NCBI GenBank assembly: GCA_019915015.1
Contig: JAHBBC010000011.1
Location: 62,001-126,000 of the forward strand
Source: Auriscalpium vulgare
Lineage: Eukaryota; Basidiomycota; Agaricomycetes; Russulales; Auriscalpiaceae
Direction: 5' to 3'
DNA: 64,000 bases
The translations under genes and the position numbers were made by a program. The notes beneath the pieces are model-generated. The model saw nothing but the letters and a program-made list of their open reading frames with translations, had not been told where the DNA came from and ran no database searches. Shown one piece after another: positions 6,563-56,902 of the stretch. Within the stretch, counting starts at the first letter, position 1, and every line of letters begins with the position of its first letter.

Positions 6563-6570
6563 CGACGCCT

Positions 6571-9753: not shown

Positions 9754-9780
9754 CGGGTTGCTGAGCGGTTGACACTAGCC

Positions 9781-12076: not shown

Positions 12077-15000
12077 TTACCTTCTAGAAGATGTTTTGTA
12101 TATTATACTATATATCAAGACGGACGCCTTATAACCCCTTGTATTATAGATGTCCTGAAGGTCAGACAGCTTGGAGTCTGAAACACATGATCTACCTGTT
12201 GAAATGCCATCATGAAACCAGGTTTCCCCCTTGTCTCCTATGATGCGAGCTGTAAAGTGAACATTTCCATAGTAAATGATGCCCTTTAACTTATACATTG
12301 TCTTTGCATTGGAATGACCAACATGGATAGAATGCCGTATTTTTAAATTGTCTGTGCCAGCATAAGGTAGTGCGACAGCAAGCATAGGTGGAGGATTAGC
12401 ATTTATATCTGTTATTTTCACTAGAGGGCGTTGGCAATTTTGACACAGTCGAGTTGTTCTTGTTTCCAGTAGCTTATTCAACTCTGCCGCCACTGTCTGA
12501 CTGACATCACGCTCTAGTGTCCAAAATGGAGTATTGTATTCTCTGTCTGACGCCACAAGATTACATGACTTGCATAGATATTTGATATGAAAAGCATATT
12601 TGTTACTGGACAGAAGTTCTCTACAGAGGCCATATATGTCTGTGCCAGTTGTATTATTCATAGGATAAGATCTTGGATCTTTGGCATGAAGTTGAGACTG
12701 AAGTGTATCTCGAGTGGTTTCAAGAACATTCAAAGGTTGACCATCGAGTACAGCTTTCCATCCTTCTGATACCAGCTCCATCCAATTGTTCATAAGTGCA
12801 ACCTCCCTGTTCCAAGTTACATTATGGTTGACATAGATCTGAAAAAGGATTGTCAGAATACTGTCATACGCGCAACTCCAGGTGTTTGCACTCCATATAT
12901 AGCCTCTACGTTCTCTCCCTGTCAGAGTACTAAGACTGGCTTCAGTTTCAGCTACCTTTCTACGCTTGACTAAACGTGTTGGTCCAGGGTCCCTGTTGAC
13001 ATGAGGTAATTGCTGTGATCCAGTGGCAGGAACAAAGGTCTGCTCAGCAGCCTGAGCTTGAACTTCATCAAACTTTCTTTTGACCCCACCCTTTGGTTTC
13101 CGACCTGCACTGATTCTCTGCCAAGGTGCATCTTCGCCAACGTCAGGGATCACTAGGGGATCTGCCTTGGACCATTTAATAGAGTCGTGAACATTCTGTG
13201 GGACATGTTCTGTGCCTACCCATTCTCTGTATTCCTTGATGATAGCGCTGCGAGTTTGCGCAGTAATGTGATGTGGAAGTTCTCCCACATAACGCAGTCT
13301 TGTTATCTCATCCAAGAGCTCCAGCTCTCTGAATTCTTGCCGGATATGACCAGGTAGTCCTCCGGTCATTATTCGAGGGTTAAAATCTTGCATTAGAATG
13401 GTGCCATCAATGCTGGCACTTCTGGAAAGGCAAGTATAAATGGACTGGTGCGTGCGACACTGAGCAGGATCAACAATATTGAAAGGTCTAGTTCTACCTT
13501 GAGATGCATAGTCTGTCATGGCAAAATTGGGAACAATCGGAACCTGCTCACGAGACACTAAAATAGTGCCATCTCGAGGGGTGTTGCATTTTACTGGAGT
13601 AGTCTGTCTGGACAAGGGGATGACGTTCTCAGGCAGACCGTCCAGTTGCACAGAGGACGGAGGCTTTGTGAGCTTTACAAAGACCACATCCAAAGTCTCC
13701 TTGTCATCATCCGTAGCATGTGACTGCCAGCCTACCACTGTTCCTTCAGCGCCATTTGTGACACAGAGCTCTGTGGCTTCATTCCGTTTAATCATGACAG
13801 GCATGCTGTGGCATAATCTGAGCACCCCAGGGATGTGCATTGTGGCACCGTGAGGCAAATCATACAATCTTTCTTGAATTTCGGGAGGCACTCGATTGGA
13901 CTTGCGCTTGGGATCCAATGCTCTACCTTGTGGTCGTCGAGTAGCCGGTTCTTGTGACTTCCACTTGTCAACAGAATAGAATGGCTTGAGAGTTTGGCCT
14001 GTCTCTGCTGCGAACCTTTCAGACATTGTAGTATTGATCTGATCTCTCTGAGAATTGAAAGCAGTGATGATAGAGACATAACGAAAATCAGGGTGGTTTG
14101 GGTCAACAGAGGGATTTTGTGGACCTTTGATCCTAGTACGCAACAGTGCAATGTCTTCCAGGGTGCATGACTTGTAGCGCATGTTTTCTAGCGCAACTCT
14201 GAATTTGGCATCTCCGGGTGTTTGAGTTCGCTGTCGCATGTTTTGTCTCAAAATTACGACAACCGTGATCTGGTGCCACAGGGCCTTTCCAATGGTCCTG
14301 ATTTGCTGTTTGATACCATTGGTGGTCGACAAAACTGTGGTAACATTGTGACTGTATAGAGCAGGACCCTTTGTTGCGATTGGAGGCAGTTGAGCAAAAT
14401 CGCCTGCGAATATCATGTTTTTACCTCCAAATGCCTCATGGTCAGACTGAAGGGCGAGGCTCATCTGTGCGCTGATATGATAGAAGTCACCGCAGTCCAC
14501 CATTGACACTTCATCAAAGAAGACATATTTTACATGTTGCAATCGCTCACGAATGGCACTCATTGTCACTGCTGCCTCGCTCACACCAGAGCCACCTGCT
14601 TCACCACCCCCACGAAAGCCAAGAATAGAATGATAGGTTGAGCCTGAGACCAGTGCAGCTGCAGACCCAGTTGGAGCCATGATCAAAAACATGTAGCTTT
14701 TTTGTTGCCTCTCAAAGAGCGCCATCAGAGCCTTGATAACCTGTGACTTGCCTGTCCCAGCCATGCCGCCAATATGCATCTTGAGCTGGTCTGGTGCAAG
14801 CTCAACAGAGTGGTTTGCAATTATACGATAGGCTCGCTCCTGTTCTTCATTGAGAGTAAACTCTGCAGCCACACTGTCTATCAACTTCTGATCCTCAGGG
14901 TCCACTGCTTTGAATTTTTTGAACAAGTATTCATAATCCACTATCTTAACAACATCGGTATTGTAACCCGAGTGGTTTGTCCTGACTTGATCTTTTGAGT

Positions 15001-18000
15001 TGCTGTCATTCTTACCGTGAGACAACTGCTGTTGCTTAGCTGCAAGTACCTCAGCTTTCTTTTCAGAAAGAGCAGTCTTCCATTGTGCAGAAGACACAGA
15101 ACCCCCGTTGACCCTCTCCGCCTCGAGATGCCAGCCATGCTCAGTATCAGGTACATCCCAGCCACCTGAGTGTAGCAGTTTTTCCATCTGAGCCATCTGA
15201 GCAGCTTTATTAGCTGTTTTGTTTCCCACCTCATTGAACTCTGTTTCCAGCAATGCAAGCTGCGCTGGGTCATCCATACGTTCCAATACTTTGTCTTCTT
15301 GATACTGTGCATCCAACTCATCTTGGAACTGGCCAAAAATTGGATGCAAGTTGCTGTTCTTTTTCTCCTTTTCTGCAGCTTTACGTTGAGCATGGAAGTC
15401 ATCTCTGGCATCATTACATTCATATCGTATGTTGAAGAAATTCATAATCTGTGTCTGTCTGGCTGTAAATGTGTACCGATCAAATGCTTCTTGCCACGTT
15501 TCATTTTGATTCTTCAGGTCACCTCCACTTCGCCAAGGTTTGAAAAGTGTAAGCATGGTCATACAATACTCCTCATAGTTACCCTTATCCCTTCTTGGCA
15601 AGATCCCCCCAACAAAATTTGGCACAATTGGTTCATCTTCAGAAGCTAGTCTTACACTGTGGGTTTTCCATTGAGGATGTTCAGTTAGAAACTGAGGAAG
15701 TGACTTTGCTGTCTGCTTTGGATTTCCACCTTTAGTCTTGCCAGCTGCTTTTTTCCTGCTCTTATGTGGGGTAGTTGTGCTGCTGTCTGCCTCTGACAGG
15801 TTGCTCATAACAAAATCGCTGTCATCCCCATCAGATGTACTCTCAACAGCGGTGGACTCTACATCTAACATTTCCACATCATCCTCTAGCATGACACCTA
15901 CAGCTGTGCCCTCTGAATTATAGCCATTATCCATGTCAATATCTCCATTGTCAGATGGCTGTCCACCACCAGTTTGAATGAGATACTCATCTTCATCTTC
16001 ATCTGAGTTGTTGTCAGCTATGTCCCTCTCACTGATTGCAAGCTGATCAGCAGATAGCTGAAAGTCAACATCCAGAATTTCATCCACCGCAAGTTCTTCA
16101 ATATTTTCAGAGGCAACTGGACTGGATTTGCCTTTGGGAATTTTGTACTTGGTTGCAAACCGTATCCAATCATAGAGGGTCATAGCCTCATACTCTACCG
16201 GGCGCATAGTGAAATCTTGAACGTTGCTCAATGCAATGACTTCGCCGTCTGCATTGTTCAGAACAACTCGCTCACCTTTCTCTTCTTCAGAGTCCAAAGG
16301 TGTCCAGAACCTCTTTACTTCATTAAAAAATGGTTTCCAGAAGAACACTTTGAATTTGTGACTGGTGTAGTGGTCTGGATGACCGAGAATGTAAAGGGAC
16401 GCCATAGGACCACCAATTTCAAGCTTTGTAGTCATAGTATTTACAATCTGTACAATGATTTTGCGGGCCTTTTCCATTTGAGTAGCTGTGCCATTGATAA
16501 ATTCTGAACGACGGTTAAAGACTGTCTTTATGGCTTCCAACATCACATGTGTCTTTAACGGTGTTTTGGTAATGTAGTCTGTCACATAGGCAATTACAGA
16601 TTTGATGGCAGTGCCAGAGAGTAGACTTGTCACATCTGAGTTGCACCTGATCAAATATGTCAAGACAGGATTGAAGGTATTCAACCAGGCCTCCCCATGC
16701 TTCATTTCCAGGGCACCTGTATCTAAATCCAACGATGTCTTGTCATGTATGTCTCTGGGAAATCTGGACTTGCATGAGTCATATTTCTTATTTGTACAAC
16801 CTGCATGACACCTATGTCTGTTTGAGCGAAAAATCAATTCATCTGCAGTTTCCCACATTCTCTTCCACCAAGACTTGTCTTCTTCACAAGCATCACAGTT
16901 TGATGAATTGGAGGCTGCATGACTGGAGCAAGCCTTTGGAGGACATTCAGGAACAGTATAGGTGGGATCCAATTCTGAATCTCGGTTTTCCATATTATCT
17001 TGGATTTGTGTGTGGACATCCTCCAAAGTTCCATTGATGAATTCACCCTGATGTCCATTTTCAAGGTATTCAACAAGCTCCTTCTGAAATTCAGAGTCTT
17101 CTGACATGAGGCGGTCGCGAATCTCTTGTGGGGTCAACGATTGTTGAATCCAGAGCAGCATATGCAGGTGAAGTGTCAGTCGCCCCTGCTGTTCAACTGT
17201 GCCATAGTAGGCTGCCGTCTTGCCAAACAAACCGTCGTGCGCAGATCCAACCCCTAGTATATGTTTCAAGAAAAGCTCAACCATGAACTTGAAGAACCGA
17301 GCCCCAGAAACAGGATTGTTGGCGACCAAACGGTATCGCTCGCTTGAGGTGTATACCTTTGGATAAATATGTATATCTTGATCTGCAAAGTATAGCGCTA
17401 TTGGGTGTTTTGAATCTGTGGGAGCAAAAGTTATAAACCAGGAGGGTGCACCTTCGTAGCTCATAAGAGCCCATATCTCATTCCGGTTATACTTTGTATT
17501 TGTGCGAGAGCCTTGTACATGATGTGCGACGTGATCAAGATCATTTATGATGCGGTGGCATTCTCTTTCATCATCGCCGTCAGGTGTACTGAAATCCCCA
17601 TCCTCCATTCGCTGAATCATGTCATTCAAGGTAGCTTCATTGACATTCATCAATCGGTTTGCTATGCTGGGAAACTTGCTCTTTTGAGCTAAAAGGTAGC
17701 CCCCAGTTGCACTCCCCTTTATCTGCTCATGATTGAGTGCAATCAAAGGGAAGAGAGGTTCAAGTTGAAATCTCTTATCGTGATACATCAGCAGGGCTCG
17801 TTTGCGAGCGATATCGCTGATCTTCGAATAGCCATTCTGATTGCCTATTCCTCCAAGACCATACGGAAACAGCCACGGAAAAGCTTGTGGGTAGAGCTGA
17901 GGGTTGTCATACATTGACTCTGGGCTGTCCTTATGACCGATGCCCAACACACTTCCGCCGGAGGTCAAATACTTTAAAGCAATTGCCTTGAGCTGTTTGC

Positions 18001-19561
18001 CAGTCTTATTTTGCAACTCATTGCCTGTGAGCGCATGGCATATAAAGGGACAAACTCCCTCATCTGTTCCTTCAACATCAGGAGTTTCGTTTACCGCTTT
18101 GTCTTCGGAATCTTTTTCAGATGGTGGCAAGCGGTAGTCCACAATGACTGGAGGTCCATCTTCGGGATAAGCTGCTAGGTTTTCATATGATATTGTAAGG
18201 TCCTCATAGTCAGAGTGATTGAATTTAAGCCACTCCAAAGCTGTGGCAACTTTCTCTCGGCGGACTAGCATCGGAGTGCGTTGATACTCTTGTACCGTTG
18301 GCTTCGTAGGCCCTATGTATATGAAAGCAACAACTTCATCAAGATCAGCAACTGGTGGAGGAAGAACCTTGTAGACTTTGGGCATGTTGATTGGGAACAT
18401 CACTGCGTTCCCTCGAAGTTTGTACTGCCCAGATGCTTGCACCTTCACAACACATGCATTACGGCAAACTCTTGCTATTAGTAGTTTCTCCACAAATGAT
18501 AGCCCTTGCAGTTGAGCAGGCACCTTGCCAAGCCAATTTCCATTTGCCAGAGACAATGCTGGGATTTTTCCCTTCTCCAGAATATTGAAGCAGGCTTTGC
18601 AAACCTTTGAACATCCTTCAGCAAGTATAGGTCCCTCTGTAGGACATATAGCTTCCGTCTTGGTGCTGCGTTCTTTGCGAGTGACAAGGATGGACCCCCT
18701 GGGATTGGAAATAAGCTCTCGGTCAAAGTCAGCCTCATCGAGATTTATCATTGCTTTCGTCAATGTTAATGTTCCGCAAACAGCACATCCCTCTTCCAGC
18801 ACATTTTCTTTATTGATTGCCTGACAGTAGTCTGTGATAATTGTCCGGACAAGCTCTTTAGAGCAGGGCTTGGGTGGAAATACTGGTTGAACAGCTGGCT
18901 GTATGTGAATATTTTTGCGTTGTCTTGTCTGTGTCATCTTGGGCTTGTCAACACTATCAAATTTGAACAGAGTTGTAGCTTCTTTGCATGCAGTGCAATT
19001 TTCATTTGTCTCCATGTGATGCTCAATCATATCATATATTTTATTGATTTTGTAGTTCCATTTAACAGTCACATTGTGCAAGCCACAGATCTCAATAAGA
19101 CTGAGTTTATTTAGCCTGGTGAGCTCAGCCAGTGGAAGTTGGCAGATCAATAACTGTGAGTGATCATTGGTATCAGAAGAAATATTCTTGCCAATGTGAG
19201 CCCCATGAGCTACAAATTCAAACTGAGACAGTTGTTCAAAATTGGTTGGTGAACAAACCACATACTTTTCTAACTCCCTCAGTGCCCACAGAGCCTTTTT
19301 TCTACCCCCTCCAGTTAGGGTGACTATGGGTGGTTGAATAACAATGGGCAGTCCAGAGTGCTCAACGATGTGTTCTGAAATGTAATACGCCAGAATTGCA
19401 CATATTATAGCTAGAGAAAGTGGCCATAGCCATTGTCCATTGACATTGAAAATTGCATTGTGCCCATTGGCATGTGTCCATTGACAGAATACAAGGGTAT
19501 GTTGAAACGAGATGCAGGATGTGGTGGGCGATGAAGATGAGATCATGATGGTTGAGAGCAA
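12077..19561 (-). CDS. Helitron Rep/Pif1-helicase protein with C-terminal cysteine-protease-like domain
   Basis: 2,494 codons without a stop. The start is uncertain; the first about 80 residues may be an unspliced leader, since a CAG acceptor-like site precedes EHIVEHSG. In order: a DUF6570-like region (LSFVEKLLIARV near 357); a Helitron_like_N/Rep region (LFPYGLGG, then the HUH motif HLHML near 798 and the tyrosine motif YVTDYITK near 994); a variable acidic segment; a Pif1/RecD-type helicase with Walker A GMAGTGKSQ near 1602, Walker B FFDEVSM, then AGDFAQLPP, DYASQGRT and LSRSASIDG. A papain-fold ubiquitin-protease-like domain follows, with Cys in WSCAYDS (about 2230), His in GNVHFTAR (about 2434) and Asp in WFHDG (about 2450). 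The Rep nicks and joins ssDNA and the helicase unwinds during rolling-circle transposition. All key motifs are intact, so the copy may be active. Confidence 0.9.
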   Translation of the reverse strand: MLSTIMISSSSPTTSCISFQHTLVFCQWTHANGHNAIFNVNGQWLWPLSLAIICAILAYYISEHIVEHSGLPIVIQPPIVTLTGGGRKKALWALRELEKYVVCSPTNFEQLSQFEFVAHGAHIGKNISSDTNDHSQLLICQLPLAELTRLNKLSLIEICGLHNVTVKWNYKINKIYDMIEHHMETNENCTACKEATTLFKFDSVDKPKMTQTRQRKNIHIQPAVQPVFPPKPCSKELVRTIITDYCQAINKENVLEEGCAVCGTLTLTKAMINLDEADFDRELISNPRGSILVTRKERSTKTEAICPTEGPILAEGCSKVCKACFNILEKGKIPALSLANGNWLGKVPAQLQGLSFVEKLLIARVCRNACVVKVQASGQYKLRGNAVMFPINMPKVYKVLPPPVADLDEVVAFIYIGPTKPTVQEYQRTPMLVRREKVATALEWLKFNHSDYEDLTISYENLAAYPEDGPPVIVDYRLPPSEKDSEDKAVNETPDVEGTDEGVCPFICHALTGNELQNKTGKQLKAIALKYLTSGGSVLGIGHKDSPESMYDNPQLYPQAFPWLFPYGLGGIGNQNGYSKISDIARKRALLMYHDKRFQLEPLFPLIALNHEQIKGSATGGYLLAQKSKFPSIANRLMNVNEATLNDMIQRMEDGDFSTPDGDDERECHRIINDLDHVAHHVQGSRTNTKYNRNEIWALMSYEGAPSWFITFAPTDSKHPIALYFADQDIHIYPKVYTSSERYRLVANNPVSGARFFKFMVELFLKHILGVGSAHDGLFGKTAAYYGTVEQQGRLTLHLHMLLWIQQSLTPQEIRDRLMSEDSEFQKELVEYLENGHQGEFINGTLEDVHTQIQDNMENRDSELDPTYTVPECPPKACSSHAASNSSNCDACEEDKSWWKRMWETADELIFRSNRHRCHAGCTNKKYDSCKSRFPRDIHDKTSLDLDTGALEMKHGEAWLNTFNPVLTYLIRCNSDVTSLLSGTAIKSVIAYVTDYITKTPLKTHVMLEAIKTVFNRRSEFINGTATQMEKARKIIVQIVNTMTTKLEIGGPMASLYILGHPDHYTSHKFKVFFWKPFFNEVKRFWTPLDSEEEKGERVVLNNADGEVIALSNVQDFTMRPVEYEAMTLYDWIRFATKYKIPKGKSSPVASENIEELAVDEILDVDFQLSADQLAISERDIADNNSDEDEDEYLIQTGGGQPSDNGDIDMDNGYNSEGTAVGVMLEDDVEMLDVESTAVESTSDGDDSDFVMSNLSEADSSTTTPHKSRKKAAGKTKGGNPKQTAKSLPQFLTEHPQWKTHSVRLASEDEPIVPNFVGGILPRRDKGNYEEYCMTMLTLFKPWRSGGDLKNQNETWQEAFDRYTFTARQTQIMNFFNIRYECNDARDDFHAQRKAAEKEKKNSNLHPIFGQFQDELDAQYQEDKVLERMDDPAQLALLETEFNEVGNKTANKAAQMAQMEKLLHSGGWDVPDTEHGWHLEAERVNGGSVSSAQWKTALSEKKAEVLAAKQQQLSHGKNDSNSKDQVRTNHSGYNTDVVKIVDYEYLFKKFKAVDPEDQKLIDSVAAEFTLNEEQERAYRIIANHSVELAPDQLKMHIGGMAGTGKSQVIKALMALFERQQKSYMFLIMAPTGSAAALVSGSTYHSILGFRGGGEAGGSGVSEAAVTMSAIRERLQHVKYVFFDEVSMVDCGDFYHISAQMSLALQSDHEAFGGKNMIFAGDFAQLPPIATKGPALYSHNVTTVLSTTNGIKQQIRTIGKALWHQITVVVILRQNMRQRTQTPGDAKFRVALENMRYKSCTLEDIALLRTRIKGPQNPSVDPNHPDFRYVSIITAFNSQRDQINTTMSERFAAETGQTLKPFYSVDKWKSQEPATRRPQGRALDPKRKSNRVPPEIQERLYDLPHGATMHIPGVLRLCHSMPVMIKRNEATELCVTNGAEGTVVGWQSHATDDDKETLDVVFVKLTKPPSSVQLDGLPENVIPLSRQTTPVKCNTPRDGTILVSREQVPIVPNFAMTDYASQGRTRPFNIVDPAQCRTHQSIYTCLSRSASIDGTILMQDFNPRIMTGGLPGHIRQEFRELELLDEITRLRYVGELPHHITAQTRSAIIKEYREWVGTEHVPQNVHDSIKWSKADPLVIPDVGEDAPWQRISAGRKPKGGVKRKFDEVQAQAAEQTFVPATGSQQLPHVNRDPGPTRLVKRRKVAETEASLSTLTGRERRGYIWSANTWSCAYDSILTILFQIYVNHNVTWNREVALMNNWMELVSEGWKAVLDGQPLNVLETTRDTLQSQLHAKDPRSYPMNNTTGTDIYGLCRELLSSNKYAFHIKYLCKSCNLVASDREYNTPFWTLERDVSQTVAAELNKLLETRTTRLCQNCQRPLVKITDINANPPPMLAVALPYAGTDNLKIRHSIHVGHSNAKTMYKLKGIIYYGNVHFTARIIGDKGETWFHDGISTGRSCVSDSKLSDLQDIYNTRGYKASVLIYSIIYKTSSRR

Positions 19562-21059
19562 AGGGCAACAAGCGCATTCTAATTGCCATATTTGGCTCGG
19601 ACAGTGCCGGCTGCATTTGAACCCAGGGATTGCGCATGCAAGACATTTTTATCCAAAGTGCAGCGCAACGCGAGACACAGTAGCATAGTGATTGAATGCT
19701 TGGGGACTATCCTTAAGAGATGAATGTGTGGGGAAGAAGAATTGAGGAAGCAGCAGGCAATTGTGCGCGGTGTCATATTACTTATACCCAAGCAAGCGTC
19801 TGTGTGCGTAGGTGGCACTCTTCGCACTCGATTGCACACTCAAGGCATGCCATACTACATAGCAATGTGTGCAAACCGCAGGTGTTGTGGGCCACATCGC
19901 TCATACACAATGTGCGCAATGTGTTGCCTTGTATGTCTATCCCCCATCTAAGCGCGCGTTTATCTCAATGGATCATGTCTACTGCCTCATGCCCCACAGT
20001 CTCTTGTCTTCAACGTCCTCAGTCTGTCCACTCATGCGGCATATCATCCTCCTTGATGTAGAAGTTGACCCGGGTCGGGTAGTGGTGCGTATACCCTCTT
20101 ACTTTCTATACTACCGCGCGCCCATGATGGCAGCAGGTCGTCACTATCATGGTTGATCCTGAGGGGGTCATAACATCCTCTGTGTCAATCCAGCACCCTC
20201 TTGGCGAGCCATTCCCCCCCGGCTGGACCTCCGCAACCGCACCTGCCCACGCAAATGCGGCAGCAGCCACCATCAGCGAGGAGGATTTGGTTCGCAGGGT
20301 GACGGTCGCAATGCTGGTGGCGGGTGCCGAAGGCCGTTCTCAGTTCTCAATGCATGAGTCCGTGGCCTTGTAGGAGCCAATGTATGCTCTGTTTACGATG
20401 TCCCTATTCAATTGTTGGTCTCACTGGATCACGCCAGGTGAATCCTAACATTGCTCCGTGATCATCACACCAATTGTATTCTGTCTGTTCCATGCTCGTA
20501 ACAATGTTGTACTGGAGCTTCCAATTATATGTGATACTCTTGTAGCTTGTGCCTTGAGTCCCAAGGTCAACATAGCGCGCTCCCCCGTGCAATGCCATGT
20601 ACCAAAAACTGTCCATCGAGTGGATACCGGCGCGTTGCCATGCAGATCTCGATACCGGCCCGGCGGTACTATCGGCTTGCGATTATGATACGTAGCGTAG
20701 TATAGTAGATACTTGGTACTGACGGTAGTAGTGGCGAGTTGCAGTGTGAAGCAATAGATAACAATTGTGGTGCGAAAGCATCGAGAGCGAGAAGCAAAAG
20801 TACAATGGTGACGTAGTGAGAACACGATGATGTAGTGGTGATAGACGTAGTGGGAATAGTCAAGCAGGGAATGAGCCACGACACATTTAAGACTGAAACA
20901 GGATGCAGTGGAAGTGGCCAAACTTGAAGAAGGACATCGCACTTGACTCGACCAGAGCGCTGGTTTCGTATCTGCAGTGCACTGTGAGGGACAGAAAGAA
21001 GCAACGGATTTAACGGACGTACCTGATCTTCTGACAATCATCGGTCTGATGATGACCGG
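19562..21059. other. Intergenic region right of the Helitron; no gene supported
   Basis: Contains the Helitron promoter and undetermined 5' end. A small plus-strand frame (20149-20373, 74 codons) and some minus-strand frames exist, but none has a recognisable domain or consistent exon structure. The 20,680-21,040 stretch is more A+T-rich and may be the 3' flank of the next gene. Confidence 0.4.
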
Positions 21060-42835: not shown

Positions 42836-45800
42836 CTAAGCATTTACCACAGTTGCTGAAGCCCACGCCTCTGGCTTCGAACTCATCTCAAATTCGAGAG
42901 TTTCCCCCTGTACGATGTCCTCGTGGCTGATAATGGAATCAAGTCGCTTCTGTCCGTTGACTGTGAGAGACTTGATGTATGGCTTGTTCAGTGCGCCAGA
43001 TGTGATGATTTTTAAGGTTTTTTTTTGCCATAGGTAGGTGGATTGTGACTTCGTCGTAGAACGGCCTAAGCAACGCAGAGACCTTGAGCCCGGATAACGA
43101 ACTCAGTGACATGTAACAGGGACGTACGATCCAATCACATATTCTCCGGAGGCAGGGTTCACAGGGTAGAATCCGAGCGCACCGAACAGATACCATGCAC
43201 TCATTTGTCCACAGTCCTCGTTCTGCACAGGGTGGCCGGACAGGTGAGCGACAGTCGCAACTGCAAGACAATAAGACTGACTCCAGCAAGACCTGTGACT
43301 GTGTTATTGTAGTCTACCTTGGCAATTTGACGGACTTGAGATTGAGCTTTGGAGGCAGCACCGGCCAGGGAGTACACTGGGTACGGGATGTCATGAGAGG
43401 GCTGCAACACTAGCTGTGAATGGACTACTTGACGGCCAATATCGCCCGTACCTCGTTTGAATGGTCATTATGTCCTATAAAACCGTCAGAAATGTGCGTT
43501 ATGTTCGAAGTCCATGCAAACACAGACCTCCTTCAAAATGCTCATCCAAACTCTCCATGAACGTCGCCTTTCCGCCGCGTGCCTCTATGAGTTCATCGAC
43601 AGCATGCACAACGTCGAATGAGTAGGCCCATTTGTCGCCCTCCGTCCATCCTGCACTCTTGCCCGCCCACGCGCCGTCCTCATTGCGCGCCTCCATGAAG
43701 CCGGTGCCGTTGTTGTAGATTGTGAACGGCGCGACCATGGACCGGTTGAGGAAGAATGACGAATCTTCTGTGTTCCCGACTATCCGTGCGAAGACAGAGA
43801 CAGCAAAATCGTCGTCTGAAACGCATTGTCATGGTCTAGCGTCCTGGTAAGCCTCGTGGCAACGAAGAGGACGTACAGGCGTAGTCCAGAGTGCGTGACC
43901 CCGCCTCTGAATGAACATCATCCGCCACCCATCCTTTGGCTGCGTACACCGTGCTCAGACCCGCGCGGACCTCTTACCCGACGCCCTGTTCGCGATCCGA
44001 GTATCTGTGTGTATGATGAGCCGGGGGTCACTTGACCGCAGGAACAACTCACGAGATTGTCGAGTCATTTTCTGGAGGAACAGTAGCATCCTTATGTACA
44101 GCTTTGTACGCAAGATTCAGGTCAAAGCCAGTGATGTTCTTGAGCGCAGCTTCTGCGATCAGGGAGTCGGCGTGCGTCCCGACCTGAACGCTCGGTCAGT
44201 GACCAAGAAAATAAAGTTGCATCGGCGAACCGGCCCACCATGATGTTCGTCTCTGTGAAGGAAGCTAATCAAATCTGTATTGTAATTGTGCTGAAGCGAA
44301 ACAAACAATGTTCTTCCACATTGGTAGCCACCCGCCCTACAAAGCCAGTTGTCATCAGGGAAAGTGCGACCAATGAACTGAGATAACTCTTCATAATCTT
44401 GGAGCATGCTCTGCACCATGCCAGGTATCCTCTCTGGCGCGAGCAATATCTGCCAAGCCCAGATTGCACGGGATGTGTCCTGCCGGCGAGTGTGCCTGTG
44501 AGTAATAGACCCAGTCGTTTGAGAGAGAGCTACTAACCCAGATAGAATAACCGGTGTACGAAGTCCCGTCATGCACTGCGTCGTCGTATCCAGAATAGTA
44601 TTTTCCATCCTCATATTGCTCGTAAGGATACTACAAGCCCATTAGCATGACTATTGGCACCTGGAAGTTTGGCAAACGAACCCACCTGCAGAGAATGGAA
44701 GACGCCCGTATAGAAAGTCTGCAACTCAGCATCTGACGCGCCCGCGACTTGAATCCTATCCAGCTTCTCCGCCCACTCTGTGCGCGTCTTCTTCGCTGTC
44801 TTTCTTCTCTAGCGATGCTCCGTCTGGAACCTCGGCTTCTACATTCCGCCGCGCCTGCTCGATCGAGATGAAAGAGACTCCAACACGGACATTCACGACG
44901 CGCGTGTGAGGCGCAAAGGTTGCGTATCCGCTCAGCAAGGTGCCATTCCGGGCGCGCTCGCTAGCGTACAGCGTACCATTTGTGGCGGTGGCCCAGCTGG
45001 CGAAAGGAACGTCGAAGCGTGCGACGAAGCACCCTCGGAATGAGGGGGCGGCGTTAGGGCCGATAATGAAGTTTTGTCGCTCAGGATTGGTTCCGGTGAT
45101 CTCGCGCGCAGCGGGTTTGATCGAGATGCTGCCAAATGGATATGTCACGTTTGCAGGATCGTCAGAGCCCATGACAGATGCGCGCGTTGCCTCCAGGAGG
45201 ACATATGGGGTGGCAGTATCGGAGAACGTGAACCGAAGATGCCCCACCCGGGATGCTGGACAGTTTTGTGAGAAATTGTACGACGACGCCTACACAAAGG
45301 ACGTACTTGCGCTCTGCTCGGCAACTATATGTCCACCCTCTATGGCGGCGAGGATCGCTTTGTAATAACTCGGTGTAAAAACCTCGTCATCGTGACTAAA
45401 CCGCATTCCACGTTCCTCGAATACGCTCTGAACAGCGCCGGCGCCGGGGACGACCACCACCTGCGCACTCTCACCCATCCAGATCGCCGGCTGGTGAGTA
45501 CCCTGGAAGCCATGGATGGCGGTATCGGTGATGTTGCAAGGCGTCATGGAGACATAATTCTGGCGCGTCTGGGCGACCCATCGTGTCATGGCAAATGGCG
45601 GTGCGGTGGACGGAATCATTCCTCCAGATCCATTGGGGTGTCTCTTCCATTGCCAACGAGTCTGCGCAAGATGTAAGAGCATCAATCTGAAGGATGGGCC
45701 AAACGCGTACGGGTTCACGTGGTCTAGAGCACTACTCTTCGGGTCCCGGAAGCCTGACGGCAGGGATTGACCTGCCAGGACGGAAAGCGCGAGTAAACAC

Positions 45801-45874
45801 AGCTGCGAGACGAGGAGTTGCCGTCGCGCGTACATGTCGTCGAATGAGACGAGAAGCTGCAGTAGCCAGCCCAT
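42836..45874 (-). pseudogene. GH92-family alpha-mannosidase, decayed
   Basis: Full-length remnant with many exons. GH92 landmarks in order: GSGGMIPSTAPPFAMTRW, IHGFQGTHQPAIWMGES, the beta-sandwich domain with ATSRVGHLRFTF-like sequence, YPYEQYEDGKYYSGYDDAVH, RAIWAWQILLAPERIPGM, THADSLIAEAALKN, GWVADDVHSEAGSRTLDYA, GWTEGDKWAYSFDVVH and the late NEDCGQMSAWYLFGALGFYP. Four or so lesions break it. There is a one-base loss in the C-run at 45635-45638, a broken splice donor near 44384-44392, an in-frame TAA at 43974-43976, and a frame change in the A9 run at 43018-43026. A signal-peptide-like hydrophobic stretch follows the start. Homopolymer lesions could be sequencing errors, but the nonsense codon and splice defect argue for real decay. 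Confidence 0.75.
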
Positions 45875-46060
45875 GACGCTCGCCGTTTTATGTGCGCAGA
45901 GAATCCGGGGGAGCTATGACCTTGAGATCAACTGACCGTGTCCACCCCACAGCTTGATCGTATCTAGTGATGTCCGAAGGACAAGGGTTCACATTCATGC
46001 GCGAGAGCGACCCAGGTGACACATACCGGGAGAAAGAAAATCAGGCGTGCCCACTGGGGC

Positions 46061-47336: not shown

Positions 47337-48376
47337 ATGTCCCCGGTACGTCGTGCTGCTCGTTCTGCAAGGTCGCGCAAGGCGCTGGACACGCCAGCGC
47401 CGCCCCAGGTCAACACCAAGGCGAGCCGCGCAGACTGTTTGGCGATAGGGAAAGTAGCAGAGGCCGCTGAGCGCTGGGACGGTGCGTCTTCCCCCTCTTG
47501 ACCCCGCGCCTCGTGTCCGCTCACTCCTGGCCTCGGCCTCGCAGATGTCATCGCCCAAGTGAAAAACATCATATCCTACTCGAACGCGCAGCTCAATACT
47601 GAGCAGCGCAACCTCCTCTCCGTCGCGTACAAGAACAAGACCGGCGCCCTGCGCACGAGCTGGCGCACCGTCGACACGCTCGCGAAGCACGCCGCCGCGC
47701 TCGCCGCCGCGGGCCGCAATGTGCCGCTGCGCGAGCAGGCGCTCCTGCGCCGCCAGCGCGAGAAAATCGAGGGCGAGCTTGCCGCGGCGTGTGAAGAGTT
47801 GCTTGATATGCTGAAGAACGAGCTGGTGCCGGCGGCCGACGTCGGCGAGGAACGTGTATTCTAGTACAAGATGTGCGCGCCTTCCGCTTACACGTACCGC
47901 TCATGCTGATGCACGTACAGGCAGGGCGACTACTACCGCTACGTGACCGAGTTCTCCACGCGCCCGCCACACGCCGCATACGCCACCCGCTCGCTCGACG
48001 CGTACACGGCGGCGTACAAGCACGCCGTCGGCACGCTCGCGCCATGGCACCCGACACGCCTCGGGCTCGCGCTCAACTTCGCAGTGTTCTTCCGCGACGT
48101 CCGTGCGTCGCCGGAGCGCGCGTGCCGCCTCGCGAAGCACGCGTTCGATGAGGCCGTCGCGCGCCTCGACGAGCTGGACGCGATGCCGGAGCAGACGGTG
48201 AAGGACGCGGTGATGATACTGCAGCTGCTGCGCGATGATCTGATCCTGTGGTCGGGAAAAATGGCAACGATGGGTGAGTTCAACTTCTGTGCTGTTCCTT
48301 CTGATGGATAAATAATACTGTGTGTTCTGCAGATCGTGAGGAGGAGGAACGCAAGCAGCAGCCTGAGAAGCGATGA
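47337..48376 (+). pseudogene. 14-3-3 protein gene with one in-frame stop
   Basis: Exons 47337-47481, 47545-47872, 47921-48273 and 48333-48376 join in phase to a 14-3-3-like protein of about 289 codons. The family signature RNLLSVAYKN is present, as is the second signature in diverged form (VKDAVMILQLLRDDLILW). One codon is TAG (47862-47864), where the family has the first Tyr of F-Y-Y-K-M. No alternative splice avoids it, so the product would stop about halfway. 14-3-3 proteins bind phosphoserine/threonine motifs as dimers. The sequence is otherwise full-length but unusually Ala/Arg-rich, so this may be a recently silenced extra copy. Confidence 0.78.
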
Positions 48377-49217
48377 CATCGACAGACATGAGATGATGGT
48401 GCGATTTGACTGTTTTGACTTTTTTTCTGTCTGTTGTGTTTCATTGCGTTGACATACCCATGTGTCGACTACCTACCCACCCTTGTATATCTATGAATTT
48501 CTCTGTTCTGTCTCACTGACAGATTGCTACCAATGCCCGACCGGTTCGTCGGCACGGCGGTGCCGTGGTAATTTATCGCCACGTGAGCGATTATTTATCT
48601 GTCATCCAAATCTAATCTATCATCGCTCCTCCAGCCAAAATTCATCGCTTCTCCAGCCATATGGCTGGAGTCACAGTGTCTCTCAACAGCGCCCATCTTA
48701 CTGGTACATGAGTAACTGGAAGTTAGAGCGGCTCGACATCGCCCGACGAACTCTGCTCCGCGGCTACAGCTGTCTCGGGCTCGGCGACAACTACATTGCT
48801 TGGACCGACGTTCTCGGAGACCATATGCGTACGCTCTATACACGCATAGCCCTGTTCGTGAGTTCTGATTCTCATTCAGACGACTTTGGCATCATTCGAA
48901 GTCTTACGAACCTCAAGCCTAGTGTTCTTTTGTATGCGTATCTGATGTGACCTGCAGTCTAGCCTACTCGTTCTCGCTGACAATCGCGCGCTCCGAAGCG
49001 TCGTATTGCTTGGCAATATCGCCAGACGCATTTTCACGTATGTCGTCAAGTCGGATGCCCCCGGGTCCCCTAGAAGCCACGCAATAGTACATCTCGAGGC
49101 GCCTGACGCTGGCGGACATAAATGCTCGCGGTTGCGATCGCTGTAAAAGCATCGAGCCTCTGCACTCAACCCCTCACCGCGCAGTGCCTACCACTCATAC
49201 CGAGATTCTCACACATC
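48377..49217. other. Intergenic; one 20-bp perfect palindrome
   Basis: No gene supported. CTCCAGCCATATGGCTGGAG is a perfect palindrome at 48651-48670. Confidence 0.5.
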
Positions 49218-49440
49218 ATGACCGGCCAACTCGTCTGGCTCATCACCGGCTCCTCGTCCGTCCCCTTTAACTTCCTCCTCTCACACCAACTAACCTCTCA
49301 CACCAACTAACCTCTCACACCAACTAACCTCTCTCGCGGCGTAGCTCTGGAATCGGCCACGACCTCGCCCTCGCTGCCCTCGCACGCGGTGACAACGTCA
49401 TACCTACCGCTCGCGAGCCTAGCGTGCTCAGCGCGCAAGT
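49218..49440 (+). pseudogene. Short-chain dehydrogenase (SDR), N-terminal fragment
   Basis: MTGQLVWLITGSSS followed, after an intron (49254-49344), by GIGHDLALAALARGDNV. Together these give the Rossmann T-G-x-x-x-G-I-G motif of SDRs. After about 49440 the frame has no recognisable SDR features. The intron contains three tandem 17-bp units ending in CTAAC. Confidence 0.6.
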
Positions 49441-50446
49441 CGGTCATGGTGCGTCGCAGCCGCCCGCACACGCTTGCTCTGCACGTGCCCTGCGATTTTC
49501 TGGTCCGTCCACGCACCGCTCGAAGATACGGCCTGCCTGCCTTCGTCAGGCATCATGACTCGCCGCTTGCGAGATGTGCAGCGTGCGCGTCGTCGTCCAG
49601 AGACAACGTCAATGTGCAAGCAGCGCGCGCGCTGCGAGCCCATGCGGTGCAGTCTTGGGCGTACGCCAGCCTGAGGTCTGTATCAACAGGCAGACAGTTC
49701 GCAGTTGCTAGGCGAGGTGCAAGGCCTTGTTGCATGAGATGAGGTAATGCTGACTCATGCTGACTTATCGAATCCATCAGTCGTTATCAGCGCCATCACC
49801 CTTGCCTCCTGCCACCATCATCAAGCTGCACATTTGCTGTCCTTGTCCACCTACACATCTGTACCGTCTCTGTGCTTGGCTTCTTAGGAAATTGGGGAGA
49901 CTACACTACAAGGTGAGCCTGACCAAGTCGGTGTGGAAGCATGGACTCATTGTATTTAGCAGCGATCTGGCGTGTGTACTCTGCGGGGCATTTGATCGAT
50001 TCAAAACCGAGCGAAACTCGCTGCCGCGCTCACGATTGTGAAACTTGCAGCGATCTGTGACCTTCACAACGGTGCGTCTCATACTCCAGCCTTCGGGCGA
50101 CACGCCTTATCTCAGACTGAGTGTGTGACGTGTAGGTCGTAATGACATCTGAAAGCAAGAGCACGCCGGCAGCCTTCTTCTCCGCCGGTGAGCACGTTAC
50201 GATGTACGCTTCGTCGTTGTGACGTAAACAGTATCTTCTAGGCGTGGATGGCTGGTTAGCCCCAACCATTATACCTACTGACCCTGAGGGGACAGCTCCA
50301 GACCTTAGTAAGTGTTCTTACATCAATGAAATATCAATATAAACTTGATGTACCAATAGAACCTCTATTTACTGTTTCTAACAAACAAAGTTATCACATC
50401 AAAGGTACGTAGAGTGTATAGGAACTGACTACAAATTGATCTTAGT
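49441..50446. other. Left flank of the dioxygenase-chromodomain locus
   Basis: No gene supported. Composition changes from GC-rich to AT-rich around 50,290, which may mark the left edge of the element carrying the next gene. No terminal inverted repeat was found that pairs with its right side. Confidence 0.4.
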
Positions 50447-53400
50447 ATGTCTTCAGACCTACCCAAGGCCCTACAGTTGGGCCAGCCTTCTGCAGAGAAT
50501 GCTGATACTAGAGAGCCTATTGGAAAAATATTCAATGATTCATCTGATCTGAAAAACAAATGGCAGTCTGTGGCTTTGGCAGACCAGAATATGCAATATC
50601 ATTATGGGAATTTTTCAGACAAAGAGACTCTTAGCCCACAGTGGCCTGTTGATTTCAAACAGGCAGAATTTCCTGATGAATGCATGTCCACAGCAGATGG
50701 CAGAGATCTTCCTTTAATCTTGTGCCCTGAGGAGGCTGCTCCTGCTCCACCAAAAGAGGATCTGTTTTATCCCAGTTCACCAGATTATGTCAGGAATATT
50801 GACATCGATCGACGGTTTACTCGAGGATTTTACTACACGGCGAATTGGAACACTAGTGATAAGGCAGCTACAATGAAGATGCTTATGAATGTTTTAACAC
50901 CTCTGAATGTCAGAGTTAATCATTGGGAGCCTGACCAATACATAGATCCTGATATAGGCAAATCTTGGCCAAAGGCTATTAAGAAACCTATTCCTGGCAT
51001 GACCAAGATGATTCCAGGAGTTCCCTTTACTACACATTTAGATGGGGAGGAACAGGATTTAATCACGGTAGGGTGTTATCACACCCTAGACTCTTTGCAA
51101 CAATATGAGGACTATGAAATAATTCGCCAACTGAGCCAAGAATTGATGGGGCATACTTGGTATGGAGCAGAACTTGGGAGTGAAGGAAAAACACTACCAC
51201 CAGTTTATGCCCTGAATGGCCTTCAGCCAAATATGAGGGCTACTACACCTGTAGTGCGCACAGATGGGGTTCGGGACTACACAGGGTCGTTTAGCATGGC
51301 ATTTACGGTTAGCGAAGGACATGGTAATGGAACAATATTGCCAGCTGTTCAAGCAGTTTCACCTGAAGCTTTGCAAGTCATTCAGATGATCACAAAAATT
51401 CTGCATGCCATGTACAGGCATATCATGGCAAAATCTGTGTCAGCTGAGGAGTTCTCCACCCTTGAGTGGGAATTGACAGATAATAATGTCATTGCTTTTG
51501 GTGGATTAGCCCCTGGGAATACAGGGCTCCAACAAAATGTGTCTTCAGAATGCACCGGGGGGTTCCTTGGGAAACAGCTGGGGCCTACACAGGGATGGGC
51601 GCACCTGGATGGCAATGATTGGCTTAGGGCATTTACTCTAATGGTCATGGTGGTACTGTTTCCACCTGGCTCAGATGGAGGCGATTTTCTACTCTACCGC
51701 CCAGGCATCTATGTTCGAGAACAAAACACAGCCATAACATGGGCTGTATTCAAGGGAAATGATGTACATTCTGGGTGTGCTCCAGAAGTATACAATGTTG
51801 CTGAAAGTGATGCCTGGCGAGAAGCCTGTCTTAGAGATTCACGCAAGGAGAAATGCATTAATCGGGTGAATTATATATGTTATCTACAAGGCCTTGCTGT
51901 TAAAGTTCGCAAAGAAGGCGCTGGTGCTATATTAGTTAACCCTCCATCACGGTTTGGAAATAGTGGAACTGTTGCCGCTCATTTGAGCAAGTCCCAAAAT
52001 ATTGCTGTTAATGGGGTACATCTTATGGGCACCTTATCGGACTATCACAACCGTCTCGCTCGAGAAGAGGCATATAATGCATTCAATATAGCTCAAGTGC
52101 GGAGGTCTCGCATAGATATAAATGCTCAACTGACCAACACAGAGTATATGGATGAAAACAATCAGTTGCAAAAATGCATAGAGGCACCTTTCCATCCCAT
52201 ACACAATTCTATATTTGTTGCCCAGATGAGAGCGCGGTGCAAGCGACAGGATTGGCTGCTAGAGAAGTATACAGTTCATATGTCTCGTGCAGGATTCCGA
52301 GCGAGTCAAACTAAAATCCGCCGTCTCTTTGAACAATCGGATCAACAAACACTACGTGTAGGACCAATCGAGAGCGAAATACGAAACTCTACTCGTAGTG
52401 AGCTGTATGATCCTTCAAAATTGAAAGAACGTCTGCGATTTCCTGGTACATTTATAGGCCAAAATATTGATCACCTACAGAATCAACAAGATTTGGATGA
52501 TTCAGGACAAAATGTCTTTGGGACACCACAGGACAGTGTGCCACACAATGATGAGACAATTTCCAGTGTAGATGAAGAAGAAGATGAATTGCTAGGGTCT
52601 GATGTAGCACCTGAGGAGTCTACTGAGAGTGGAGTGTTGGACAATTTTGACACATTGGAGATCCAAGAATCAGCTCTGGATAAAGATGATGGTCAACTTG
52701 AGCATGGAGATGGAGATAACAATGATGACAATGGGAACAACAACGATTCACAGAGTAGAGATGGAGAAATTGCTGAAGATGAAGATATTGATATTACAGA
52801 TGAAGATGCTGATGATGAGGAGGAAGAGGAAGAAGAAGAAGGAAAAGAAGAAGATGATGATGATGATAATGATAATGATGATGATGATGATAAAAATGAA
52901 GGACATCATGAAAAAGATGATCGTGCTGATCATGCTGATCATGATAGTAATCATGGTCATGAACATGTGGTTGGGAATGCAGCAAGTAAAGTCTCTGTGA
53001 CAGTTGAAGAGTATGAAGTTGAAAAGATTCTTGATTATCATGAGGTATGTTTATATCTCAGAGTTGGAGTATGCTTAGTAACTATCGTCTGTTCAGAATG
53101 CCAGAATGTATTATGTGAAATGGATGGGATACAAGAAGCCAACTTGGGAACCAGCAGAGACAATTGAAAGGTAGGCAATATCAAACAGGAAACTCTCAAC
53201 AGTTATTCATAGTACTTTTCAGTGGATCATGTGAAATGATTCTGGCAGATTTTCACAGGTCTGTTGCACAGGATTCAGAATTGTCTGAAAGAGAAGAAAA
53301 CGATTCTGACTACATCTCTGATGACGATGATGATGGATATGGAAGCGATGCTCACTATGCTGCAGTACATGCTGTTGGAGAGCAAGTTGAACAAAATGCA

Positions 53401-55899
53401 TCTGAAAAATTTCCACTTGCCATACGGGTAGAGTCTAGATCAACTGTTGCTTTGGAGAATTTGTGCTCTCATGAAGAGTTACAAGAAGACCTTCACAATT
53501 TGGAGAACAGTGTTACCAATTTGTCTAGTGCTCTATCACAGGATGATGTATCAATGTCATCATATATCAAATCTGTTGCAGTCCAGCATAGTATGAATGT
53601 AGAAGTGGCTAATCTTGAAAAAGGAGCATGGTCTGATGATAGTGTTGCTGTTACAGTTCGCCAAGTTTTTCAGGCAGCAGAAAGTCTTCCAAGTCTGCAT
53701 GTAGACTTAGATGTTATCAACACTATCACTCGAGTACTATTATGGGAGACTTGCCGTGCAACTGTGACAATCTACCAATGGTTTACTTCATCAGGTCCAG
53801 CTTTGGTACATGAGTTGTTCAGAACTTACTCATGTGGAGGAATATCAGATGATGATAAAGAAGAAGCTATCTCAAAATGTTATCCCACATATGCTCCTCT
53901 GGTCCTTCATGTGATAGATTATGTGAATGCATTTTTAAGTACCAGAACAAGGAAACGGAAAGGAAGGATTGGGGAAACCCCTAGGATTGCGAAGCCTGTA
54001 AAAATTAGTCAAACAGTACCTGCGTCAATGCTGAATGCAATTATGCGAAGAGACGATATGAAAGATGCTCTATTGCCAACTTTAACTAAAGTTAAGCCTG
54101 GTCGAGATGCTCTCCTACTTGCAGAACAGGTGTTGCTAAAATTTTTGAATCAATGCCTATTGGGACCACATATGTATCGTTTGGATAAACTTACCAACCC
54201 AACAAGAGAGTCAGAGCGAGGAAAGAAAACAGACTTTCATGAAAAGGCGTATGTGCATGCACGATCTCGGACTCTTCTGCGTGGCTGTCATTTGCAAGCT
54301 ATACTTGATGCAGTTGATGGTGAAGATGGGATATTTGCATCAACTCTGGTACAGAGGTTTTTGCAGGCAGCTGGAAATATTTTTACTACAACTACATCAT
54401 CGCAGGGCAGAATAAGGGATGTTGCTCTTGGGGGACGTATATTTCCAAGTCTGAATCCTGAAGTTTATGATGTTACAAAGGAATATATTGATGAGCTACT
54501 TGTTTATAACAAAAGTGAAGTAGTGAGGCTTGCCAAGCAAATGGGGGATACAGCATGGACAGGATTTCAAAAGCTCGTGCCTTATGCAAGGATTGAGAAA
54601 TATTCAAACACATACATGGCCAAGAGAATGAAGAGAAAAGGGGCAAGCAGGCAATCTGTAAAAAGTCTTCAGAAGCGAGCAGATGCACCTGAAGGGCCAT
54701 TGTCCGTAGGAACACTGGTGCATGAATCAGGAGCTCCATATTTTGGAATGATTGCATGCATCACACGTGAAGCTCTACTGGATCGAAAGGGAAAAGCTCA
54801 AAGTCCACCCACTGTTATGATGGGAAATTTTATGCTATACAGAGTGTTGAATGGAAAGCATCCTATTGCTGGCCAAACTAGATATAGAGATCCAGCTCAT
54901 TATGACCCTGTGAGAGGAGACAACATAAATACTCGTGTGTTGAAGCAAGTTCTTCCCCCTCAAGTTATGACTAAAAAGATCAGCATCTCATGGCTGCTGA
55001 CTTTCATGTCTTTAGGCCTTGGTCATAAAACTGAAGGATTCTGCACACAAAATAATACTTCAGCCACATTTATGCAGTTTGAATCTTTTGAAAAATGCTG
55101 TGAGGTCTTTAGAGATGCTGAGGAAGCATATAAGACAGGTGGTGAAACAGGGAAACGACCATATGAGAATCCCTTCATCTGGGGCCAACATTGCAGTTGG
55201 TTGTGTTTGCGACTTAAGCATACAGTTGGGCCGTTAAAGAAATCTGTAAAGACGATTGAAGAAAAATTTGCGCCATATTGGACAGATGACGTGCAGAGGG
55301 GATGGGTTGCCCTTCTGGGCAATATGTTGGACCAGGATCCAGATACCTACACAGGGAATCGTCCCTCACATGAGGCAGCTCTTCAGCTATTATACAGGAC
55401 AAAGACTCTGATTGGATTTCAAACTGGGTTAACACCGTTGCAGTTTGCAAATAATTTGACTTGTCTTGGAATCTGTGATGAGCCCTCTGTTGAAAATATG
55501 GGATTTTGGATTTCAAAGCATAAAAATTTGGGTGCATTTGCAGGGCTGCATGCTCTTGGTTTCAATGTAGTTGGGAAAGATGATCCTGCATGGGTTGAAG
55601 CAGCATTCAGATGTGTATATGGCCACCTAAATACCCACTTGAGTGAGCAACAAAAACAAGACTTGCACTTTGGTGCTATTTTTGTTGAGCACATCCTGTG
55701 CAAAGTTGTTCGCTGGGAGAAGGCACTGAGAGGAAAAAACATGCAGAATGTCACATTGAGAGGCATTGCAGAGGAAGAAGTAGAGAAGTATACTACAGAA
55801 TATGTAGCACCTCATACTTCTGGTGAAGAAGACTTGATGGCATTCCCATTCCCAGCCATTATGACTTCTGAAAGTATACAGCCTTTCATTTTGTCTTAA
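50447..55899 (+). CDS. 2OG-Fe(II) dioxygenase (TET/JBP-like)-chromodomain giant protein
   Basis: Exons 50447-53044, 53097-53170 and 53223-55899 join in phase to 1,782 residues. The N-terminal region holds a double-stranded beta-helix dioxygenase: H-x-D in WAHLDGND (about 386-388), VVLFPPGSDGGDFLLYRPG, and the distal His in GNDVHSGCAPE (about 441). It resembles the TET/JBP-type DNA oxygenases known to be expanded with transposons in mushrooms. A long Asp/Glu-rich tract follows (about 770-840). Splicing then creates a chromodomain (about 853-910): YEVEKILDYHE, MYYVKWMGYKKPTWEPAETI and SCEMILADFH. The C-terminal about 870 residues are mostly helical and unassigned. They include MSLGLGHKTEGF, NPFIWGQHCSWLCLRLKH and FGAIFVEHILCKVVRWE. 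The known chemistry of the first domain would be 2-oxoglutarate-dependent oxidation; the chromodomain suggests chromatin targeting (inference). No internal stops. Confidence 0.75.
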
Positions 55900-56569
55900 A
55901 GTACAGTACAAGGTAAGCTCTGTTTATACCGTACTCTTGACAACTGCTGATTTGTTTTCAGTGTAACATACATAAAGCTAGAATAAAGCAAACTTTCACA
56001 ATGTAGCCATCTTCGTTGCATTCCATTTGTCTACAGTGAACCAAATAAGCCATACAGTGCTTTACCTGGCCTCAAGTCCCTTGAATTCCTCAAGTCTCTC
56101 TGTACCCATTATAGTATACTCCCTCGGACTTTTCACACATGGCATTGTAGCACAGAGGTGTACGTACATACTGTGAAATTTAACTGTTATAATCTGATAA
56201 TGGGCACTACACACAGAAGGTTCCTGAATCCCTACATTCTTTCCTTAGTGTAGTAAGGTGTAAGAGACATAGTTTTCCATGTATATATCAAGTTAGAACC
56301 ACACAATTGTGCATACAGTGTGTGTGCTATAACCAAGTTGATTTGACCTGAAGACTGATAACGTGCTGTATAGTGTCATCAGGCAATCATGCAAGTCATG
56401 TGAATATCTCTTACATAAGGATTACATAAATAAAAAGAAGAAAAAGACGCCTGGTGGGAGTGGGATTCGAACAGGCGACCTTGTGGATTAGACAGGTGGT
56501 CGTGGGAACCAACTTCCTAGAGCGACTCATTCGAATGCGCCAAAAAAAAACCGACCTGTGGAATAAATA
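55900..56569. other. AT-rich 3' region of the dioxygenase locus
   Basis: No coding gene. A tRNA-like 3' piece lies within it (see 56452-56472). Confidence 0.5.
56452..56472 (-). other. tRNA 3'-half-like sequence
   Basis: On the minus strand it reads GTTCGAATCCCACTCCCACC followed by A, like the T-loop, T-stem and acceptor strand of a class II tRNA (Leu/Ser). The T-stem partner is mutated and no matching 5' acceptor GGTGGGA is found upstream, so it is not a working tRNA. A T-rich stretch follows, as in Pol III terminators. A tRNA-derived SINE or chance remnant is possible. Confidence 0.3.
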
Positions 56570-56588
56570 AACGATTATAGTAATCGTA
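56570..56588 (+). repeat. Hairpin identical to the Helitron 3' hairpin
   Basis: AACGATTATAGTAATCGTA, 19 of 19 bases identical to the element-strand sequence at 12066-12048. Stem of 7 bp, loop TAG. It is followed by ACTGACTGG, then Plavaka coding sequence on the opposite strand. Confidence 0.75.
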
Positions 56589-56902
56589 ACTGACTGGTTA
56601 TCTGGACTGGCGTCGGGAGGCGGACCAGCAAAGTGGAATGCGCGCTGCGGGGCAGGGGGTGGGCGAAGGAGACGGTCCGCTGAGAGGGAGGGTTGCAGCC
56701 GCGGTGGCAATTCGTTAGTGGCATTGTGTGCAGAGAGGCTTTGCAGGCGGCGGCGGTGCTCGACGCAGCGCGGTGTCGATGTGCGGCGAAGGTGTCTTGT
56801 GAGGCCGGAAGCCAGGAACCACTGGTTGCATCCGAGGCACTGCTCTAGGCCGCGGTGGGGTTGCGACGACGGGCCAGCGTGGCTCTGAATAGGGTCGGCC
56901 AT
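56589..56902 (-). pseudogene. Plavaka transposase, first-exon fragment
   Basis: Starts MADPIQSHAGPSSQ and contains a zinc-finger-like C-x2-C...H...C segment (CLGCNQWFLASGLTRHLRRT, then PRC), which I associate with the N-terminus of Plavaka transposases. After about 104 residues the frame reaches a GTCAGT donor-like site and the hairpin at 56588-56570. The rest of the gene is not on the far side of the dioxygenase locus as far as I can recognise. Confidence 0.5.

Follow-up and report, generated by a model that had tools for sequence, protein, structure and literature searches.

A single spliced gene on the plus strand of the 64,000-nucleotide Auriscalpium vulgare window analysed here (contig JAHBBC010000011.1, positions 62,001 to 126,000) spans two long adjacent open reading frames (ORFs) and ends at window position 55899. 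In the interpretation that we favour with moderate confidence, this gene encodes a heterochromatin-directed protein of about 1.8 thousand amino acids (aa), consisting of a 2-oxoglutarate (2OG)-Fe(II) oxygenase-like part, an acidic linker that leads to a chromodomain of the type that binds histone H3 methylated at lysine 9 (H3K9), and a conserved C-terminal region.

The two frames run without a stop codon for 912 and 926 aa, compared to a maximum of 276 aa when 50447-55899 was base-shuffled 200 times, and are therefore not due to chance. Intron removal and a phase check joined the exons 50447-53044, 53097-53170 and 53223-55899 to a continuous, stop-free frame of 1782 aa. Numbered according to the longer gene model described below, this part of the gene is built up as follows:

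50457-53044, plus strand: exon 4, with the oxygenase-like region, the linker and the first part of the chromodomain; colinear with the paralogue on contig C14 and with the Panaeolus proteins P0001, P0004 and P0005
53045-53096, plus strand: intron 4, 52 nt, GTATGT...GTTCAG, phase 0; counterpart intron in the paralogue
53097-53170, plus strand: exon 5, middle of the chromodomain
53171-53222, plus strand: intron 5, 52 nt, GTAGGC...TTTCAG, phase 2; counterpart intron in the paralogue
53223-55899, plus strand: exon 6, with the end of the chromodomain and the C-terminal region; stop codon at 55897-55899

To the sequence-only reading, which had proposed one gene with two canonical and phase-correct introns, we can add independent evidence, and splicing, the paralogue and the colinearity with Panaeolus together confirm it. 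The genome (51.6 Mb, 96 contigs searched) contains one full-length paralogue on C14 (1449764 to 1444427, minus strand), which we modelled with six exons and 1684 aa, picking canonical introns by eye. Two introns, of phases 0 and 2, interrupt its chromodomain piece, both located within about two residues of the intron positions in the window gene. Copies of the same architecture, for which the earlier reading had suggested a search, were also found in other mushrooms, namely the 1708-aa protein P0001 in Panaeolus papilionaceus (E 1.9e-95) and, in P. cyanescens, P0004 with 1729 aa and P0005 with 1719 aa, all three colinear with the window gene from end to end. The Panaeolus proteins share with it the invariant HxD/H/R residues, the central chromodomain and, with small variations, a C-terminal QTGLT...EHxLCK block. 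In their source records, all three are named just 'hypothetical protein', with 'Chromo domain-containing' added for P0004 and P0005. The window gene is only 24 to 27% identical to the other four members, whereas P0004 and P0005 share 70%; a three-part order that is kept at such low identity is not expected of a chance adjacency. That two separate genes merely happen to lie side by side is thus extremely improbable and strongly contradicted: both long frames are indeed open without splicing, but colinearity with the paralogue and with three annotated Panaeolus proteins extends over both of them, and the chromodomain requires the removal of both introns.

No relatives were found in viral contigs, prokaryote genomes or phages. 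One alignment search returned just two MPP8 records from one bat species, covering about 5% of the query, and P0001 exceeded the length gate of that search. Two decayed, frameshifted fragments with equal scores (L029 and L030, C2:284253-284596 and 294700-295043) lie about 10 kb apart and are 93% like the C14 paralogue. Near the gene, no tRNA or other Rfam RNA was found.

The start of the gene probably lies further upstream than the ATG at 50447 with which the earlier reading began. An in-frame stop is located about 20 bases upstream of this ATG, and three introns with canonical ends (50188-50241, 50308-50359 and 50405-50456; 54, 52 and 52 nt) link an ATG at 50142 to the same frame, giving a 1831-aa model whose five introns measure 52 to 54 nt:

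50142-50187, plus strand: probable exon 1, with the ATG at 50142; from the only three-intron chain, not confirmed by homologues
50242-50307, plus strand: probable exon 2, from the same chain
50360-50404, plus strand: probable exon 3, from the same chain
50405-50456, plus strand: probable intron 3, 52 nt, GTACGT...CTTCAG, which contains the ATG at 50447

Under the rules used, this was the sole three-intron chain, and none of 300 shuffles of the upstream stretch yielded one. Because these rules were fixed after the chain had already been seen, and because homologues did not clearly confirm the first 50 residues, we regard the start at 50142 as probable only.

The central part of the protein consists of two features:

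52565-52960, plus strand: acidic low-complexity linker, recognised by its D/E content and repeats
53009-53256, plus strand: chromodomain across three exons, recognised by PF00385 after splicing and by PDB matches

In the 190 residues directly before the chromodomain, 72 are D or E. The prediction that the chromodomain is assembled from three exons and exists in no single frame was borne out, with a Pfam match obtained solely after splicing: Chromo (PF00385) was absent from the unspliced frames and pieces scanned with Pfam, scored 25.8 bits (9.8e-6; cut-off 25.1) in the whole 1782-aa protein and reached 31.8 bits for the spliced 62-aa piece. All five family members matched the model. Three of them passed the Pfam cut-off, including P0001 (29.1 bits) and the paralogue, scanned as a piece (46.1 bits, 4.7e-12), while P0004 (21.5) and P0005 (23.6) stayed below it. 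The closest solved structures, according to the PDB matches, include Clr4, MPP8, Rhino, CDYL and HP1, and most of these chromodomains bind methylated H3K9. At what we take to be the positions of the aromatic methyl-lysine cage (Y/W/Y, placed from HP1), the window gene has Y856, W875 and Y878 in the 1782-aa numbering. The corresponding residues are Y/Y/Y in the paralogue, Y/W/Y in P0001, F/W/Y in P0004 and Y/W/C in P0005, so that all three positions are aromatic in four of the five members. The chromodomain of the window gene is predicted to bind methylated H3K9.

The N-terminal half contains the following features:

50954-52126, plus strand: core of the oxygenase-like domain, the stretch used for the second structure prediction
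51602-51610, plus strand: H-L-D (HxD), putative Fe(II) ligands, invariant in 5/5 members
51767-51769, plus strand: distal His of the putative triad, invariant in 5/5 members
51863-51865, plus strand: Arg, putative 2-oxoglutarate ligand, invariant in 5/5 members

Based on this H-x-D...H...R pattern, whose functional roles we infer, and on structure comparison, the domain likely belongs to the 2OG-Fe(II) oxygenases, broadly defined, and would have oxygenase activity. Several results weigh against this assignment and would fit a protein that is a chromodomain scaffold, with the HxD/H/R residues a coincidence. The oxygenase half matched no Pfam family and had no meaningful PDB sequence match; both structure models were poor, with predicted local distance difference test (pLDDT) scores of 31.9 for the first and 40.5, likewise low confidence, for the second; and Foldseek by itself found no match for the second model at E <= 0.001 in the PDB or viral libraries. 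Nevertheless, a non-oxygenase is unlikely, since the four residues are invariant in five proteins that are just 24-30% identical over the main splits, and since all 18 top rows in a second-look VIA comparison of the pLDDT 40.5 model are 2OG-type oxygenases. Two further candidates, Ezh2_MCSS (E 0.56, oxygenase half of one member) and Midnolin chains (E 1.2-1.3), were set aside as chance matches.

The more specific TET/JBP label of the sequence-only reading found no support in Pfam, PDB-sequence or profile tests, and the structural hint points to 2OG-type enzymes in general. The motif does not carry this label either, as HxD...H...R fits any 2OG-Fe(II) oxygenase. We consider it doubtful that the protein is a true TET/JBP DNA dioxygenase with a chromodomain, oxidising 5-methylcytosine (5mC) or N6-methyladenine (6mA) in H3K9-methylated heterochromatin. 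The invariant HxD...H...R would agree with such an enzyme, as would the spacing from HxD to the distal His, which is 55 residues compared to 50 in two Tet_JBP frames of the same genome. In addition, fungal TET-like proteins can diverge beyond the reach of sequence methods; the passages covered of Kojima 2025 (PMC12730594) give an HHpred E-value of 1.4 between the PE type and CMD1. On the other hand, Pfam Tet_JBP (PF12851) matched none of the five members, although the same model matched the genome at 17 places and exceeded the cut-off at 11 of these. An hhalign comparison with two own-genome Tet_JBP sequences gave 0.2% probability with a very thin profile. The VIA rows name other 2OG-type enzymes and no TET entry, which, for a low-confidence model, does not exclude an unlisted family. 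Finally, the hallmark of the PE type, HxE replacing HxD (PMC12730594, passages covered), is absent, with HxD in 5/5 members. NCBIfam gave no match, and a PF20515 search of the genome found nothing, with controls that gave no match either. Compared to the fungal TET/JBP dioxygenases (AG, PU and PE types; CcTet), the window family is alike in the order HxD...H...R, in its fungal host and in a genome with DNA methylase matches, but differs in having no measurable sequence similarity to them. Six of the Tet_JBP places in the genome (L003-L008) have an identical score, which suggests a recently multiplied element.

The last part of the protein comprises:

53698-55860, plus strand: conserved C-terminal region, limits approximate; from the alignment, with no Pfam match over the cut-off and no PDB match
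55243-55755, plus strand: best conserved C-terminal block, QTGLT ... EHxLCK, of which an 84-column stretch recurs on C2

About 720 residues are conserved in this region, with 25-28% identity to the other four members (alignment columns 1180-1988). We found no Pfam match above the cut-off and no relative among solved structures, and in the search of the family profile against the PDB all 41 hits at E <= 1 overlap the chromodomain. The earlier description of a large C-terminal region outside known families therefore stands, and its conservation across members can now be added. The 84-column match is located near the end of a third gene, a 631-aa frame on C2 (L020, 2682-4574; about 2185681-2187573; hhalign 93% probability, E 2.6e-7). 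In the 9 kb upstream of this frame, a tblastn search with the five members as queries detected nothing else of the family. The C-terminal end is thus a module also present where the other two are missing. Sub-threshold Pfam matches of the C-terminal half to TriTu and PBECR5 (E 0.014-0.034) were set aside as chance.

A mobile origin or horizontal transfer of the gene is possible. In a stronger version, which we entertain only tentatively, the gene sits on a mobile element, or was recently acquired from one, and its protein helps that element to withstand or exploit heterochromatin. The gene forms an AT-rich island with a G+C content at third codon positions (GC3) of 0.33, compared to two host-type frames, both at 0.64, and to the Helitron of the window, at 0.42. 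Its spread in the searchable data is patchy, comprising two Panaeolus species and the A. vulgare genome; the two P. cyanescens proteins lie on contigs of 11 and 17 kb, and there are fragments on C2. The setting is rich in transposable elements: upstream of the gene lie the Helitron, at about 30 kb, and Gypsy-type frames, at about 40 kb; a further Gypsy-type frame follows about 8 kb downstream, just beyond the window end, and the C14 paralogue has an integrase-core frame at a distance of about 5 kb. Against a mobile element stands that the gene is single copy at the DNA level and that the C14 paralogue is not AT-rich (GC3 0.56). Neither the frames scanned right beside the gene nor the C-terminal region matched a transposase family, and terminal repeats were not evident among the listed 20 of at least 60 direct families and 25 of 74 inverted pairs. 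The missing terminal repeats are a weak argument, because Kyakuja elements lack terminal inverted repeats as well (PMC12730594, passages covered). A recently amplified transposon was rejected, as no second full copy was found at the DNA level; the match list for the flanks is incomplete and omits even the window's own place.

Further features of the window were observed around the gene. The Helitron-type frame (12080-19648, minus strand) is uninterrupted over 2523 aa, contains DUF6570, Helitron_like_N and PIF1 helicase and has a GC content of 0.447. The Gypsy-type long terminal repeat retrotransposon frames (2903-9774, minus strand) carry integrase zinc binding, reverse transcriptase RNase H and aspartyl protease. 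Two frames at 44756-45913 (minus strand) match successive parts of a glycosyl hydrolase family 92 N-terminal domain and apparently belong to an intron-containing host gene. A stretch of 1.4 kb at 48000-49419 is 94% identical to a site that lies 18 kb into contig C8 and may reflect a subterminal duplication. For a short repeat that closely follows the gene (56501-56595), 21 matches of 82-89% identity are listed at other places of the genome.

The main source on the TET/JBP expansion in fungi is said to be Iyer et al. 2014 (PNAS); our literature search, which did not extend to that paper, found no fungal oxygenase-chromodomain fusion. Three types of transposon TET/JBP are described by Kojima 2025 in the passages covered; searched for 'chromo', the main text of this paper contains it once, inside 'chromosome' (PMC12730594). 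A 2026 review of fungal methylation, in the parts covered, presents chromodomains together with methyl writers and treats TET-like enzymes apart (PMC13297926). DNMT5 and HP1/DIM-2, as described there, likewise have a chromodomain beside, or recruiting, a DNA-modifying enzyme, but they deposit methylation, whereas the window protein would instead carry an oxygenase. The nearest pairing found in the literature is that of orchid Ty3/Gypsy elements with AlkB (PMC9289625), likewise a 2OG oxygenase borne by a transposable element, in a paper whose introduction covers chromovirus chromodomains. In contrast to the window gene, their oxygenase is of the AlkB type and encoded in an additional ORF, and the passages covered contain no single oxygenase-chromodomain polypeptide.

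In the mechanism that we propose, the protein would be located in the nucleus, where its chromodomain would dock on H3K9-methylated heterochromatin and thereby place the oxygenase there. The oxygenase might then oxidise a nearby methyl group, carried by DNA, RNA or protein, and silencing would be weakened or edited. The genome has five DNA cytosine methylase matches, on C4, C9 and C12, two of them with an internal stop, which makes 5mC a possible substrate; 6mA, RNA and protein are equally open. More speculatively, the family may represent mushroom-restricted, single-polypeptide 'reader-erasers', in which the chromodomain would bind methylated H3K9 and a novel sequence-orphan 2OG clade would remove or modify a methyl mark, countering the DNA methylation that chromodomains guide in DNMT5 and HP1/DIM-2, and in which the C-terminal region might be a new nucleic-acid- or chromatin-binding fold acquired from or via mobile DNA.

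Plain reading of frames conceals such proteins, as the chromodomain is in neither long frame and no Pfam family matches the oxygenase-like half. Chromodomains are known to guide methyl writers to silent chromatin, and this arrangement would be mirrored by a single protein that brings a putative oxygenase to the same place. Such a protein would raise the directly testable question of whether mushrooms have a heterochromatin-specific erasure of marks.

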